A stretch of DNA of 12,801 nucleotides, from NCBI GenBank assembly GCA_017431395.1, contig JAFRLD010000019.1, positions 1 through 12,801 on the forward strand, written 5' to 3'. Numbering within the stretch: position 1 is the first letter of the stretch; each line of letters opens with the position of its first letter. The DNA comes from Bacillota bacterium (GTDB taxonomy: Bacteria > Bacillota > Clostridia > Peptostreptococcales > Anaerovoracaceae). Position numbers and translations under genes: made by a program. Shown one piece after another: positions 39 to 10,396 of the stretch. The notes under the pieces were generated by a model. The model worked only from the letters and a program-made list of their open reading frames with translations. It had not been told where the DNA came from and did no database searches.

Positions 39-3000
39 TCATTTACAGGGCCGCTTGACCACGAATCGGTCTAGGCAGGCCAGGATCCCGGGCAGTAGGA
101 AGATGACCAGGATCGTTGCGATCAGACAGCCGATGGAGAGGATCCGGCAGATCTGCCGGGTGGCAGGCTCTTCGAACGCGAAACTCAGGACGCCGACCGC
201 GGCGATCAGGATGGTCGCGGAAGTCAGTATCGTCTGAAGAGAGCCTTTGTAGGCGGCACGGATCGATTCGCGCCGGGATAGAGGCGCCGCGCCGGCCCCG
301 GCGACAGGCTCGGCCAAATCGGCCTCGGCAATCGAAGCCGCGCCGGTCCCGCCGGCCAAATCGGCCCCAGCAATCGAAGCCGCCTCCGCCCCGCTCCGGT
401 TCTCAATATAATAGGTCGTGTAGATGATCGCGTAATCGATGGTCGCGCCCATCATGATGCTTTGGACGATGAGCAGGGCCAGATAGTTCATGTCGATATG
501 CAGGGCGTTCAGCACCGCCATAGTCAGGAAGACGGCGCACTGGATGATCAGCACCAGAATCGCGGAGGTCACGAACCTCCGGAACGTCAGCAGGACGATG
601 AACAGAATGAAGAGCGCCGTCAGCAGGGTGACCCGGTTCAGTTCCGAATGGAAGGTCTGGGACATCTCATAAGCCATCGGGGTCGCGCCGATCAGGTACA
701 TGGGGGAGCTGAACCGCTCGCCGGTATAGGAGGTCAGCTGGTCCATGAAGGCTCTGGTTTCGTCCGAGTCCTCCGGAAGATCCGCGTTGATCATGAGCCG
801 GCCGTAATGCTCTCCGTGCAGTTTGCCGGCCGCCTCTTCGAGATCGTCGCGCATCTCATGGACGTCCTCGATCTCGTCCTCTTCCATAGCCTGTGAGAAG
901 GCTGGCCGTTCGATCATCTCTCCGTCCAGATGGGAAACAAGCTTCATCAGATCCATGCGCCAGGATTCATCGTAATAATTCCGCGAACCATAAAGCTCAT
1001 AGAGCATCTGCAGATCGCCCTCGGACATATCCTCGCTATAGCCGTCCAGCAGGTCCGAAAGCCCATGGTAAGTATACTCCGTTCCATTGACGGCCCCATT
1101 GATCAGCCTTTGGGCAAGGCGCAGATCCTTCGCGGAACCGCCGATGCGGCCCTTCATGTCGGGATCGCTCAGGACCGTGTTCACGAGGAAATTGATGAAC
1201 TGCTGCGGGGACAGCGTCCACCGGTCGGTATTGCCATGCTTATAGATATAAAGCAGATAGATGCTGCGGACGTCGGACTTCTTCATGCCGAGAAGCTTTC
1301 CCATAGAGGATGTAGAGAGCTTCTTGCCGCGCACGGAAGTGTCGATGATCTTCCGGAGCGTCCTCAGCTGTTTCCTCTGGGACTTGGTCAGGGAATGGCG
1401 GATCGTCTTGTCCGACAGCATATAGTGGATGAGTTTCTGTACGGAGATCTTGTGCGAGGCGGGGTCAGAGAGGATGTCCGAGTAAGCCCAGACCAGGGTC
1501 AGGGGCTGCTCATCAAGAGGGATCCCGTAGCCGGTCAGGGCCTGGACCATGGCAGGGATCTCGTATGGTGTGGGATCCATCTGGCCGATCTGCGAGAGGG
1601 CACCGATCAGCTGGGCGGTCTCTTCGCCGCCGAACTGGTCCTTCAGGGCAGGATCCTCCGACATCTGCTGCAGGATCTGCGCGACATCCGCGATGGTCCG
1701 GGTCCCTTCGACTCCCTTTTTCATATGATGGTTGACGTAGATCATCCGCATCTGGGGCTTTTTCATGCCGAGAAGCTTAGCGGCTCCCTTGTAGGTGCGC
1801 TTCTTCGTCATTTTCTTTTTATTCGTATAGACCCGCATGGATTCGAGCTGCTCCCGCTGGGAGGCGCTGATCATGCTCCCGTAATCCGGGTCCGTGGCCA
1901 CCTCGTCGATGAGGAAGGAGATAAAACGCGGCAGCGTCATCCGGCCGGGATCCGCAGAGCCTTTTTTGATCTGGTAATAGAGAAGCAGCTGCCGGGCCTG
2001 GGAGGTTTTCATGCCAAAAAAGCTGGCCAGGCCGGAGGCAGTCTTTTGCGAGGTAAGGGCATGGACATCGGTGAACTTCGCCATATCGTTGATCTGATCC
2101 CGGGTCTCATCATCCATCGTCCTGCCGAAGTCCGGGTCGTACATGACGTCCTCCTGCAGGAAAGAAACGAAGCGGGGGATCGTCATACCGAACTGCGGAT
2201 CGCCCGCGTAATAATCGTAGTAGATCAGGCGGAGCATGTCGGTGCTCATATCTGTATCGCTGAAATCGGTATCGGGATCGGACTCATCGCGCATATCGTC
2301 GATGAAGTCCTTCATATCTTCGGCGGTCCGGTCTTTGCCGATCGTACTCTCATAACAGACGGCGCTGCGGACTTCTTCCCGCGCGTCCAGCTTGTCTGCC
2401 AGCTTTCCGGCGGCGGAACTGTCCTTCTCGTTATACATCATGACGATCGTGTTGTCCTGACCGAAGGCGGCTTCGATGGCATCCCCGGCGCCATACTGGG
2501 CATAGGAGAAATCGACACCGCTTCTGGCCATGAAGCCTGCGATAAACAAACAGGCGAACAGGAGGGCCAGAGGAACACGCCCGCGGAACTGAAAGCCCGA
2601 AAGATGCGGCAGGTCGAACGGGAGCGTCGGCTTCGGTGTGCGCAGCATCAGCGAATCCAGCGCGAGCAGCATGGCCGGCAGGACCGTGAAGATGCAGAGC
2701 AGGCTGATGAGCACGCCCTTCGCGAGGGCGAGGCCGATGTCCGCGCCGACTCCGAACCGCATGAAGAGCAGGGCCAGAAGTCCCGCGAAAGTGGTCAGGG
2801 AACTGCCCGTGATCGCGCCGAACGACCGCATGAGCGCATACTTCATCGCCAGATGTTTGTCCTCGCAGACCAGCCTTTGCTGGCGGTAGCGGTTCAAAAG
2901 CATAATGGAGTAATCCATGCTGAGGGCGAGCTGCAGGATGGCGACGATGCCAAACGTGGTCTTCGAAATGCTGGGGAAAAAGATGTAAGTGCCCATGTTG

Positions 3001-3605
3001 ATCAGCACGGCGACCCCTACCGTCACCAGGAACGCGACGGGCTCGATCCAGGAATTCGCCATGATGAGCAGGACAAGAAAGATCAGGGCCACCGCAGACA
3101 GGGCGATCCAAAGCGGCAGTCCGTTGTGATTCGCGGCGTCGATGGTACCGCCCAGGGCGATCTCGTGGGATTCTTCGTAACGTTCTCCCACCTCCTGCCA
3201 GAGGGAGGCGGCCTCCTCGGAGTACTGGTCAAGGTCGCAGTTCAAAACATAGAGCGTATGTCCGTCCCGGTTGTAGTCGGTCCCGTCCTCAGAGTCCGGC
3301 AGCTCATAGTCTACGGACTCCACGCCGGAGAGATCTTCGAGCTCCGCCTTCATGGCGAGTTTCTCGTCCGCCCCATTGAGGTCATCGAACATGATCTTTA
3401 GCGTGCTGGACTCCTCCTCGCCGAATTCCGCTTCCATCAAATCAAGCCCGAGTCGCATAGAGGAATCGTCGGGCAGATATTTCGTCATATCCCGGTTAAC
3501 GTTGACAAAAGGAATCAGGGCACCACAGGCCAGGGCAAGGACGATGAATATGATCAGGATGATCCTGTTGTTTGTTACAAGAAATCCAGCAAAACGTTCT
3601 TTCAT
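39..3605 (-). CDS. MMPL/RND-family transporter with a repeat-expanded extracytoplasmic domain
   Basis: Large integral membrane protein of 1188 residues, predicted to export a hydrophobic or lipid-like substrate using the proton gradient; the substrate is unknown. It has the two-half RND layout. TM1 lies at about 13-33, followed by a first external domain (about 34-165), a helix bundle at about 166-320, another helix at about 344-362, a second external domain (about 366-985), and a second helix bundle from about 993 to the C-terminus. Each half has the MMPL Asp-Tyr pair of the proton relay (D231-Y232 in LSMDYSIML; D1057-Y1058 in GATIDYAII). The second external domain, about 620 residues, is far larger than I expect for the family and holds repeats at 457 to about 907. 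A cytoplasmic loop at about 1069-1113 carries an Ala/Gly-rich insert. The ATG at 3605 gives a proper N-terminus for the family (MKERFAGFLVTNNRIILI), but no Shine-Dalgarno precedes it. It is divergent from the EamA gene. The family call is secure; the function is not. Confidence 0.93.
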   Translation of the reverse strand: MKERFAGFLVTNNRIILIIFIVLALACGALIPFVNVNRDMTKYLPDDSSMRLGLDLMEAEFGEEESSTLKIMFDDLNGADEKLAMKAELEDLSGVESVDYELPDSEDGTDYNRDGHTLYVLNCDLDQYSEEAASLWQEVGERYEESHEIALGGTIDAANHNGLPLWIALSAVALIFLVLLIMANSWIEPVAFLVTVGVAVLINMGTYIFFPSISKTTFGIVAILQLALSMDYSIMLLNRYRQQRLVCEDKHLAMKYALMRSFGAITGSSLTTFAGLLALLFMRFGVGADIGLALAKGVLISLLCIFTVLPAMLLALDSLMLRTPKPTLPFDLPHLSGFQFRGRVPLALLFACLFIAGFMARSGVDFSYAQYGAGDAIEAAFGQDNTIVMMYNEKDSSAAGKLADKLDAREEVRSAVCYESTIGKDRTAEDMKDFIDDMRDESDPDTDFSDTDMSTDMLRLIYYDYYAGDPQFGMTIPRFVSFLQEDVMYDPDFGRTMDDETRDQINDMAKFTDVHALTSQKTASGLASFFGMKTSQARQLLLYYQIKKGSADPGRMTLPRFISFLIDEVATDPDYGSMISASQREQLESMRVYTNKKKMTKKRTYKGAAKLLGMKKPQMRMIYVNHHMKKGVEGTRTIADVAQILQQMSEDPALKDQFGGEETAQLIGALSQIGQMDPTPYEIPAMVQALTGYGIPLDEQPLTLVWAYSDILSDPASHKISVQKLIHYMLSDKTIRHSLTKSQRKQLRTLRKIIDTSVRGKKLSTSSMGKLLGMKKSDVRSIYLLYIYKHGNTDRWTLSPQQFINFLVNTVLSDPDMKGRIGGSAKDLRLAQRLINGAVNGTEYTYHGLSDLLDGYSEDMSEGDLQMLYELYGSRNYYDESWRMDLMKLVSHLDGEMIERPAFSQAMEEDEIEDVHEMRDDLEEAAGKLHGEHYGRLMINADLPEDSDETRAFMDQLTSYTGERFSSPMYLIGATPMAYEMSQTFHSELNRVTLLTALFILFIVLLTFRRFVTSAILVLIIQCAVFLTMAVLNALHIDMNYLALLIVQSIMMGATIDYAIIYTTYYIENRSGAEAASIAGADLAGGTGAASIAEADLAEPVAGAGAAPLSRRESIRAAYKGSLQTILTSATILIAAVGVLSFAFEEPATRQICRILSIGCLIATILVIFLLPGILACLDRFVVKRPCK
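311..383 (-). repeat. 42-bp-period direct repeat in the cytoplasmic loop of the MMPL gene
   Basis: Two 31-bp copies at 311-341 and 353-383 differ at two positions and lie exactly 42 bases (14 codons) apart. They encode the doubled peptide AASIAGADLAGGTG / AASIAEADLAEPVA. The insert interrupts the loop between YYIENRSG and LSRRESIRAAYKGSL, which joins two C-terminal membrane helices. It is in frame and looks like a recent local duplication. Copy number could vary between strains. Confidence 0.8.
885..2237 (-). repeat. About six tandem ~80-residue helical repeats within the MMPL protein
   Basis: Residues 457 to about 907 of the transporter align to themselves as consecutive units of 78-86 residues, starting near 457, 537, 619, 701, 779 and 865; the last is partial. 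The shared pattern is a helix with aromatic residues (IYYDYY, LLLYYQIKKG, IYVNHHMKKG, IYLLYIYKHG), then MTLPRFISFL-like, DPD-G-like, and a closing LLGMKK-like motif (FFGMKT, LLGMKK, LLGMKK). Units 1, 2, 4 and 5 are clearest; 3 and 6 have drifted. Part of the similarity survives in DNA: the 17-mer TTCATGCCGAGAAGCTT occurs at 1762-1778 and 1282-1298, encoding the end of units 2 and 4. The repeats lie between the membrane halves, on the outer face in the RND topology. I recognise no named domain here. Confidence 0.8.
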
Positions 3606-4728: not shown

Positions 4729-5565
4729 ATGCTGCAATATGACAGATTCGAGACCATATTGAATAAACTGCAGACACAGTCATCCGTCCGGGTGACAGAG
4801 CTTTCGAAGGAGCTTGGAGCCAGCGAGTCGACGATCCGGAGAGACATCGCAGACCTGGCCAAGGCGGGAAAGCTTCAGAAGGTGTTCGGCGGGGCAGTGC
4901 CTCTGCCGAATGGGACAAACGGGACAAACGGGACAAATGGTGCGAACGGTGCGAACGGAACAGACCGTGCCGATGAGACCGGAACTTCCCCCGCAGCCCG
5001 CAGAACCAACACCAGATCCAGGGACCTGCAGGAGAAAGAGAACATCCAGGCGGAGGAGAAGTCCGAGGTGGCCGCTTACGCCGCGACGCTGATCGAGGAT
5101 GGAGATCTGATCTACATAGATGCCGGAACGACGACCGGCCGGATGATCGATCACATCACCTGCACCGGAGCCACTTTCGTGACGAACGGTGCGAGGCATG
5201 CGATCCGGCTGGCGGCGAGAGGGCTCAAGACCTATCTGCTGTCAGGCAGGATGAAAGCAGCTACAGAAGCGATCATCGGCCCCGACGCGGTAGCCAGCCT
5301 GCAGAAGTATCACTTCACCAAATGTTTCATCGGGACCGATGGAGCGGACGAGGAATGCGGCCTGACAACGGCAGACATCGAAGAGTCCATGGTCAAGACG
5401 GAAGCGATCCGCCGCTCCGGCAGCGTATATGTCCTGGCGGACAGCAGCAAATTCGGCCTGGTGGCTCCGGTCACCTTCGCGCCGCTGGACGCAGGGACCA
5501 TCATTACGGACCGGCTCCCGGCAGAAGACTACCGGACGAAAGCGGACATTATAGAGTTACGTTAA
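4729..5565 (+). CDS. DeoR-family transcriptional regulator
   Basis: Cytoplasmic DNA-binding regulator of 278 residues. Residues 1-57 are a classic DeoR winged helix-turn-helix (VTELSKELGASESTIRRDIADLAKAGKLQKVFGGAV). From about residue 105 comes the DeoR C-terminal effector domain, related to sugar-phosphate isomerases, with DAGTTTGRM, FVTNGARHA, GTDGADEECGLTT and VLADSSKFG. Members bind a phosphorylated sugar and lose DNA affinity. I start at ATG 4729 because the promoter's predicted start lies after the in-frame ATG at 4690, MLQYDRFETIL is the usual family N-terminus, and AAGGGA sits about 10 bases upstream. Between the two domains is an unusual insert of NGT/NGA triplets (residues about 61-79) followed by a polar stretch. 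It lies 50 bp before gap, so control of lower glycolysis is likely. CggR, a different family, does that job in Bacillus. The effector is unknown; fructose-1-phosphate or another hexose or triose phosphate is plausible. Confidence 0.93.
   Translation: MLQYDRFETILNKLQTQSSVRVTELSKELGASESTIRRDIADLAKAGKLQKVFGGAVPLPNGTNGTNGTNGANGANGTDRADETGTSPAARRTNTRSRDLQEKENIQAEEKSEVAAYAATLIEDGDLIYIDAGTTTGRMIDHITCTGATFVTNGARHAIRLAARGLKTYLLSGRMKAATEAIIGPDAVASLQKYHFTKCFIGTDGADEECGLTTADIEESMVKTEAIRRSGSVYVLADSSKFGLVAPVTFAPLDAGTIITDRLPAEDYRTKADIIELR
4912..4965 (+). repeat. 9-bp in-frame tandem repeat in the deoR linker
   Basis: Six consecutive 9-base units run through the linker: GGGACAAAC twice, GGGACAAAT, GGTGCGAAC twice, then the diverged GGAACAGAC. 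They encode GTN-GTN-GTN-GAN-GAN-GTD. The array sits exactly between the DNA-binding and effector domains. Units stay in frame, so slippage would change linker length without breaking the protein. Confidence 0.9.
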
Positions 5566-9371: not shown

Positions 9372-10034
9372 ATGGTACGCTATCAATTTGGAGGAGAAAG
9401 CGAACTGAGCAATGCGCCCATGTCCATGAGCCTGCTGGGGAAACTGCAGAGGGACATCCTGACCGGTAAATACCGCCCGGGCCAGAAGCTGACCGAGCAG
9501 AATCTATGCAAAGAATACGGGGTCAGCCGTACGCCCATCCGGGAGGCGCTGCGTCAGCTGGAGACCGACGGGCTGGTGGAGAACATCCTGAACCGGGGGT
9601 GTTTCGTGATCGGGTTTTCGGAGCAGGACTACGAGGATCTGTTCGACCTGCGAAAGGCCTATGAGATCCAGGCGGTCAAGTGGGCGATCGATCGGATCAC
9701 AGACGATGAGATGGACCGGCTGGAGGAGACGTTCGAGTTCATGGAGTTCTACACCATGCGCGGGGATCTGGACAAGATGCTGGTCATTAATGCCGGTTTT
9801 CATCAGGTGATCTATGAGGCGGCCCATAACCGGATGCTTCAGAAGACGCTGACGTCCTATCAGACGTTCCTGAGGTATCAGGGGATGAATATGGTGTATG
9901 GGCCGGATTATCTGACGACCGTTTTGGAGGAGCACAGGGCGATCTTCAAGGCATTTACAGATCATGACCCGAAGGCTGGTGCGGAGGCGATGGAACGCCA
10001 CATCAACCGGGCGAAGGAACGGAGGTGCGGCTGA
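9372..10034 (+). CDS. GntR-family regulator with FCD effector domain
   Basis: Cytoplasmic DNA-binding regulator of 220 residues in the FadR/VanR branch. Residues about 15-82 form the GntR winged helix (ILTGKYRPGQKLTEQNLCKE and SRTPIREALRQLETDGLVE, with the wing NRGCFVIGF). Residues about 85-215 form an all-helical FCD domain that usually binds a carboxylate through a metal. Its ligand set reads N140, H144, H188 and H210 (INAGFHQVI, EEHRAIFKAF, MERHINRAKER), with Asn where Asp is more common. The ATG at 9372 is chosen because AGGAGG (9360-9365) lies 6 bases before it and the family N-terminus begins here; the open frame further upstream merely overlaps the dehydrogenase gene. It is 14 bp after the dehydrogenase and overlaps the next gene by one base (TGATG). 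It probably represses its own operon through the inverted repeat at 8184-8205. Citrate or another tricarboxylate is a plausible inducer. Confidence 0.93.
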   Translation: MVRYQFGGESELSNAPMSMSLLGKLQRDILTGKYRPGQKLTEQNLCKEYGVSRTPIREALRQLETDGLVENILNRGCFVIGFSEQDYEDLFDLRKAYEIQAVKWAIDRITDDEMDRLEETFEFMEFYTMRGDLDKMLVINAGFHQVIYEAAHNRMLQKTLTSYQTFLRYQGMNMVYGPDYLTTVLEEHRAIFKAFTDHDPKAGAEAMERHINRAKERRCG

Positions 10035-10396
10035 TGAAACAGATAGAGCTCGTCCCGGCGCTGGAGCTGGGGAACAAGCTGAACGTAGATGTAATGGATT
10101 TTCCGGAGGACGCCGGAGGGGCGGCCGAAGGGGCTGCAGATGATGCGGCCGAAGGTGCAGCCGACGGTGCGGCCAGGCCGGCAGGTCCCAGACGCAAGCG
10201 CTGCGGGATCACGCTGGAATACGCGCCCCGGGATGTCCGGGAACTGCGGGAGCAGGGAATGGATCCGGAAGCCATGCTGGAGTATTACCGGAAGCGGGTC
10301 TACGATCTGGTGAAACTGAACATCTCACAGGACTGGGCGTGCTGCGGCGGCATGGATGAGGTCCTGCAGATCGTGAGAAAGCATATTGAGGGCTGA
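10034..10396 (+). CDS. Small unrecognised protein in the aconitase operon
   Basis: Protein of 120 residues that I do not recognise. Residues 1-26 form a short N-terminal segment (ELVPALELGNKLNVDVMDFP), 27-51 an Ala/Gly/acidic low-complexity stretch, 53-56 a basic RRKR, and 57-120 a predicted helical region (YAPRDVRELREQGMDPEAML, YYRKRVYDLVKL) ending in WACCGGMDEVLQIVRKHIEG. It has three cysteines: C57, C103 and C104. There is no signal peptide or membrane helix. It is clearly translated as part of the operon: its ATG overlaps the GntR stop (TGATG) and GGAGG (10021-10025) lies 8 bases upstream; a GTG at 10025 is less likely. The aconitase-family gene begins 39 bp after it. The position and vicinal cysteines suggest a partner or maturation factor for that iron-sulfur enzyme, but this is conjecture. 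Confidence 0.8.
   Translation: MKQIELVPALELGNKLNVDVMDFPEDAGGAAEGAADDAAEGAADGAARPAGPRRKRCGITLEYAPRDVRELREQGMDPEAMLEYYRKRVYDLVKLNISQDWACCGGMDEVLQIVRKHIEG
10121..10174 (+). repeat. 24-bp tandem repeat encoding an Ala-rich linker
   Basis: Two adjacent 24-base units (10121-10144 and 10145-10168) encode AAEGAADD and AAEGAADG, followed by a third GCGGCC start (AA). Each 24-mer is itself a near-duplicate of a 12-base unit. The array is in frame and splits the small protein into a short N-terminal part and a cysteine-containing C-terminal part. Confidence 0.8.

Follow-up and report, generated by a model that had tools for sequence, protein, structure and literature searches.

The window, by which we mean the whole 12,801-nucleotide (nt) stretch of contig JAFRLD010000019.1 (assembly GCA_017431395.1) from a Bacillota bacterium, carries on its minus strand the gene of an MMPL-type RND transporter of 1188 amino acids (aa), whose outer part holds an array of six repeat units (Table 1). 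Its identification as an MMPL pump in the initial annotation holds: PF03176 (MMPL) is the sole Pfam match of the protein (E 3.8e-45, 154.7 bits against a cut-off of 20.5, in three stretches), the pump core gives a fold match to MmpL4/5, and hydropathy and the model together place 12 transmembrane (TM) helices with large outer loops following TM1 and TM7. None of the seven NCBIfam MMPL subfamilies listed, such as TIGR00833 ActII, TIGR00921 HAE3, HpnN, BstA and MmpL3, reaches its curated cut-off, the best scores being 120 bits against 874.7 and 96.6 against 351.9. The residue pairs D231-Y232 of TM4 and D1057-Y1058 of TM10 are unchanged in 45/45 rows of an alignment and occupy what we take to be the position of the RND proton relay. 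We tentatively read the protein, at a little under even probability, as a proton-driven MMPL exporter that is extended outward at its second porter domain (PD2) by an array of four-helix modules.

The repeats of the window protein are confirmed as real and lie far above chance. Local alignment of residues 365-985 with themselves gives a best score of 214 against a maximum of 49 in 15 shuffles, and five off-diagonal alignments exceed that maximum (214, 136, 71, 65 and 62), bearing out the self-similarity proposed for this region. An iterated unit profile of 76 positions finds six matches at 45-95 bits each, and the weakest match to the first unit profile is unit 3. A profile in the helix order D-A-B-C matches residues 427-513, 522-595, 604-674, 684-755, 764-836 and 845-922, all near full length; this register, one helix earlier, is preferred because the first and the last unit are then both untruncated, and the array therefore comprises residues 427-929. 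The six repeats of the initial annotation stand, its bounds of 457 to about 907 do not, and the motifs it saw recurring (MTLPRFISFL, DPD and LLGMKK) are present in some units and not in all. The units, of about 80 residues each, are 20-34% identical to their best partners within the protein and, judging from these sequences, are old and divergent. Since the DNA of the array contains a single 41-nt direct repeat pair at 78% among the 20 of 23 repeat families listed, the array is not a recent DNA tandem repeat.

Table 1. Features of the pump gene in the window; the border of each unit runs up to the start of the following unit.
Feature	Position in window	Strand	Basis
MMPL-type RND transporter gene, 1188 aa, 12 predicted TM helices	39..3605	minus	open reading frame, PF03176, hydropathy, fold match to MmpL4/5
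N-terminal pump core, residues 1-421: TM1, porter domain 1, TM2-7, first half of PD2	2343..3605	minus	alignment with residues 1-445 of the repeat-free paralog
Asp231-Tyr232 in TM4	2910..2915	minus	invariant, 45-sequence alignment
Repeat array, residues 427-929, six four-helix units between PD2 strands 2 and 3	819..2327	minus	self-alignment, unit profiles, model, paralog alignment
Unit 1, residues 427-521, with low-confidence linker near 439-454	2043..2327	minus	D-A-B-C profile, model
Unit 2, residues 522-603	1797..2042	minus	D-A-B-C profile
Unit 3, residues 604-683, divergent	1557..1796	minus	D-A-B-C profile
Unit 4, residues 684-763	1317..1556	minus	D-A-B-C profile
Unit 5, residues 764-844	1074..1316	minus	D-A-B-C profile
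Unit 6, residues 845-929, last-unit type	819..1073	minus	D-A-B-C profile, unit tree
Second half of PD2, residues 930-986	648..818	minus	alignment with the paralog from paralog residue 463 on
C-terminal membrane half, TM8-12, residues 987-1184	54..647	minus	hydropathy, model
Asp1057-Tyr1058 in TM10	432..437	minus	invariant, 45-sequence alignment

The array is an insertion into PD2, between TM7 and TM8 on the outer side. Searched with the window protein, the assembly it belongs to (255 contigs at 79% completeness) yields a single further MMPL gene. This repeat-free paralog of about 700 aa, on contig C85, can be aligned at 31% identity to residues 1-421 of the window protein and at 25% to residues 929-1188; between the aligned halves lie 507 residues in the window protein versus 17 in the paralog. 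An alignment with six repeat-free MMPLs, taken together with the model, sets the array between the PD2 strands 412-416 and 934-941, and hydropathy and model agree with its earlier placement between the membrane halves on the outer face; a long insertion within PD2 is also found in the MmpL4/MmpL5 type. Since the array begins and ends on strands of one porter domain, it must go out and return, as an arch, a hairpin or a compact cage. If the modelled PD2 is correct, this topology excludes the free one-way stalk suggested in the initial annotation. A separate insert, Ala-rich and of low complexity, lies in the cytoplasmic TM10-TM11 loop (residues 1073-1108, window 282-389), with a 42-nt tandem duplication in its DNA (tandem array 311-394); it is not in the repeat-free paralog, and 3/30 relatives have enough letters at this place for a comparison.

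AlphaFold2 predicts an array of similar, all-helical modules, as had been anticipated, with four helices per unit of 4-21 residues in a recurring pattern, arranged as helix-loop-helix pairs with isolated bridging strands ahead of helices B and D (predicted TM score, pTM, of 0.64 for the two-unit model and 0.52 for the full model). A long antiparallel coiled-coil hairpin was considered for the array and rejected, short helices in a repeating four-helix pattern being predicted. Searches of Pfam, NCBIfam, PDB sequences and folds gave no convincing match for the unit; PF09279 weakly matches 1/28 units (E 0.029), and about 25-29 of the 50 VIA rows listed for the two-unit model are EF-hand proteins by title, at weak structural similarity. 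An EF-hand pair such as a calmodulin lobe resembles the modelled unit in its helix-loop-helix pairs, bridging strands and length of about 75 residues, but differs in its calcium-binding loops, the calcium-coordinating 12-residue form of which was found in 3/364 and 0/364 loops. The unit is without a convincing model in the family libraries searched and is a domain worth defining.

With residues 370-985 (the repeat region plus its flanks in PD2) as query, a protein search that scored the 7993 candidates with the most words in common, and admitted lengths of 0.55-1.75 times that of the query, returned 58 proteins including the window's own, with PF03176 in 58/58. Unit counts run from 2 (P0058, 814 aa) and 3 (P0055 and P0057) up to 14 (P0037, 1895 aa), may move by one with the profile used (14 or 13 in P0037, 5 or 6 in P0050) and in some low cases come from incomplete proteins (P0036 and P0043). 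Units are present in all 80 genome loci, which are not a random sample because they are the best-scoring of 571 confirmed stretches: 36 loci have seven units, 21 have six, 18 have five, two have eight, and nine, four and three units occur at one locus each, the three-unit gene being cut by a contig end. The relatives' records are labelled mostly as uncultured Clostridia and Bacilli, with some Saccharibacteria, Treponema, Paludibacteraceae and Eggerthellales (labels as recorded). The distribution of the family is patchy. The unit profile finds it in 2/299 genomes of the phylum, 3/291 of the class, 7/297 of the order and 7/197 of the family, in sets that overlap and that each take in the window's own genome, and within the genus 11/25 genomes, the window's own among them, match the window protein over a long stretch, with short fragments alone in three more. 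Every unit-bearing gene recovered is an MMPL pump. The four unit-profile searches matched 15 genes, all with at least one MMPL core half, and in 178 loci, most of which had been retrieved with the pump as query, 156 stop-to-stop frames carry units; of these, 155 have the N-terminal core, 154 the C-terminal core, and none lacks both. The module, whose presence elsewhere had been thought worth checking, occurs in other genomes and, among the genes recovered, always in pumps.

A core tree, computed without the array, has one branch of SH-aLRT 100 that splits 66 repeat-bearing rows from nine repeat-free ones; the method was a quick one, and the program warns of long branches meeting at this point. 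Unit number varies from 2 to 14 while core length hardly changes (median 676 aa for rows of 600-760 aa; 4/66 rows outside 620-740, two of these cut or short), a pattern which suggests that the array grows and shrinks by whole modules within the family. The units hold positional identity, and the first and last are place-specific: unit 1 of the window protein shares 70% identity with unit 1 of P0003 and no more than 34% with the other units of its own protein, and a tree of 79 units drawn from 13 proteins, resting on few columns and with many forks unresolved, groups the last units together (support 99), with three changes for the first units and four for the second. In P0037 the array grew recently from inside, units 10 and 11 being 90% identical and units 4 and 5 76%. 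The same protein has an insertion between units 7 and 8 with two CxxCxGxG motifs that resemble the DnaJ zinc finger. Across 30 relatives from the window's clade, identity to the window protein averages 54-63% for the units, 58-67% for porter domains 1 and 2, 70-83% for the membrane parts and 42% for the linker at 439-454; six units are present in 29/30. As the units hold positional identity and change at about the rate of the other outer domains, the array looks functional. A six-unit copy in an Eggerthellales-labelled record (locus L063, 3597-7508) stands out by the length of its branch (1.46), and its core measures 822 aa.

The contig ends directly past the 3′ end of the pump gene and the window shows its 5′ side alone, where the gene faces an EamA transporter gene. 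A gene of a single TetR-like family lies divergently within 500 nt upstream in 44/80 loci and elsewhere in the locus in 2/80; it was not found in the remaining 34, where the upstream sequence is short in a few cases, nor in the window's clade among the 80. Two representatives of this family match TetR_C_8, one above and one slightly below the cut-off. In loci L025, L026 and L027, from the window's clade, a divergent upstream family of 267-277 aa that no profile identified stands in place of TetR, and one of its members has an N-terminus like that of a lipoprotein or a signal peptide. The second-largest neighbour cluster covers 19 loci with mixed lengths, strands and distances and the others at most seven, and no neighbour resembling a conserved partner was noticed in the 20 largest clusters listed or among the immediate neighbours of 40 loci. 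The host looks like a monoderm, wall-bearing cell, in agreement with the Gram-positive-type envelope assumed at the outset: its genome, at 79% completeness, gives no match to Omp85, which is present in 7/14 control genomes, and gives two sortase matches.

The nearest analogue of the window pump is MmpL4/MmpL5, the mycobacterial siderophore and drug exporters, which share with it the MMPL core fold and a long helical PD2 insertion between TM7 and TM8. Their insertion is one antiparallel coiled-coil hairpin of about 196 residues, according to PMC12501195, whereas the window family has 2-14 short-helix modules. MmpL4/5 also work with MmpS, whereas no MmpS-like conserved same-strand neighbour was noticed in the 80 loci, for which no MmpS-profile search was made and where the 3′ side of the window gene is the contig end. 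The same source describes MmpL5 as a trimer in cryo-electron microscopy, its 196-residue PD2 insertion as a coiled-coil tube in AlphaFold2, and its function as abolished when the insertion is deleted (PMC12501195), and a second group reports a trimeric channel shaped like a needle (PMC12346298). The repeat-free MMPLs of about 700 aa from the same genomes share the topology of the window protein but, with 17 residues in place of its 507, fall on the other side of the fully supported branch. FarE of Staphylococcus aureus, which we take to be MMPL-type, is likewise a Gram-positive pump with a divergent TetR gene, as in the 44 loci above, but the window gene's own neighbour is the EamA gene, and we know of no repeat array described for FarE. 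PMC8844917 places farE divergent from the TetR-type farR and reports strongly raised phospholipid release with farE up-regulation. No description of an MMPL subfamily with such a repeat architecture was found in the literature searched, as the initial annotation had also held; the architecture of this subfamily is well supported, and its function is a reasoned guess.

We propose a model, which we put somewhat short of an even chance, in which a proton-driven MMPL pump hands hydrophobic cargo outward through or along the PD2 array. A hydrophobic or membrane-active molecule, such as a fatty acid, a lipid or a similar toxic gut amphiphile, would be picked up at the outer face of the membrane, moved between porter domains 1 and 2, and then passed into or along the array. 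The array may arch out from PD2 and back, perhaps within a trimer as in MmpL5, forming a cage or conduit that would release the cargo at a distance from the membrane, inside the cell wall or past it. The array would thereby do the job proposed for the coiled-coil tube of MmpL4/MmpL5, with a different and length-adjustable building block. Several points weigh against this model. The substrate, the oligomer and the cargo path are ones that we infer, and models of the pTM given above do not fix how the units are arranged. The prevalence of odd unit numbers (56/80 loci, against 24/80 even) lowers the odds of two limbs of equal size built from paired units, a weak point since counts can shift by one. 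Since the clade of the window protein yielded no TetR neighbour, lipid stress can be linked to the pump by analogy alone. Not every such pump needs the array, given that related MMPLs of roughly 700 aa lack it in the same genomes.

The array could instead be a docking or binding scaffold, which anchors the pump to a wall polymer or to an unlinked surface protein, or pre-binds substrate, and which offers no path to the cargo. We regard this as rather unlikely. In its favour, varied middle units between place-specific first and last units fit fixed attachment points, the sortase matches point to a probably sorted surface proteome, and a cargo path through the array is inferred, not demonstrated. 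However, the 80 loci yielded no neighbour family resembling a conserved partner, and the 15 genes found by the unit profile alone are all pumps and never a separate binding protein. Improbable, in our estimation, is a gating or sensing role within PD2, in which EF-hand-like lobes shift on ligand and so switch the pump; the predicted helix-loop-helix pairs with strands before helices B and D, the many EF-hand titles for the two-unit model and the weak PF09279 match all fit such lobes. Equally small is the chance we give to neutral elaboration, that is, to tandem duplication in a tolerant loop that leaves a spacer without a role of its own. The copy number of 2-14 and recent duplications in single lineages, such as units 10/11 of P0037, are as it would predict, but the window-clade relatives hold their units at about porter-domain level of identity and keep six units in nearly every case.

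Returning to the model of outward cargo transfer, a bolder version of it, which we consider unlikely, is that metal-free, EF-hand-like four-helix module arrays assemble round the pump exit as a cage or tube, with the number of modules (2-14) fixing its length, so that one polypeptide would be both pump and adaptor and each lineage would tune its reach to its own wall. To our knowledge, how hydrophobic cargo passes from an RND pump across a thick monoderm wall, where there is no outer membrane, is largely open. If true, this version would give a Gram-positive MMPL lineage a self-contained wall conduit of its own. The family itself, with an outer extension of countable modules that comes in versions of 2, 3, 5, 6, 7, 9, 11 and 14 units on much the same core, offers a natural ruler.

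Two further tandem arrays lie elsewhere in the window. A 9-nt array at 4907-4958, encoding Asn-Gly-Thr/Ala repeats, is found in a DeoR-type regulator gene directly past the DNA-binding domain. Between a GntR-type regulator and an aconitase gene, a 123-aa frame without a Pfam match (10025-10396) holds a 12/24-nt array at 10112-10174.
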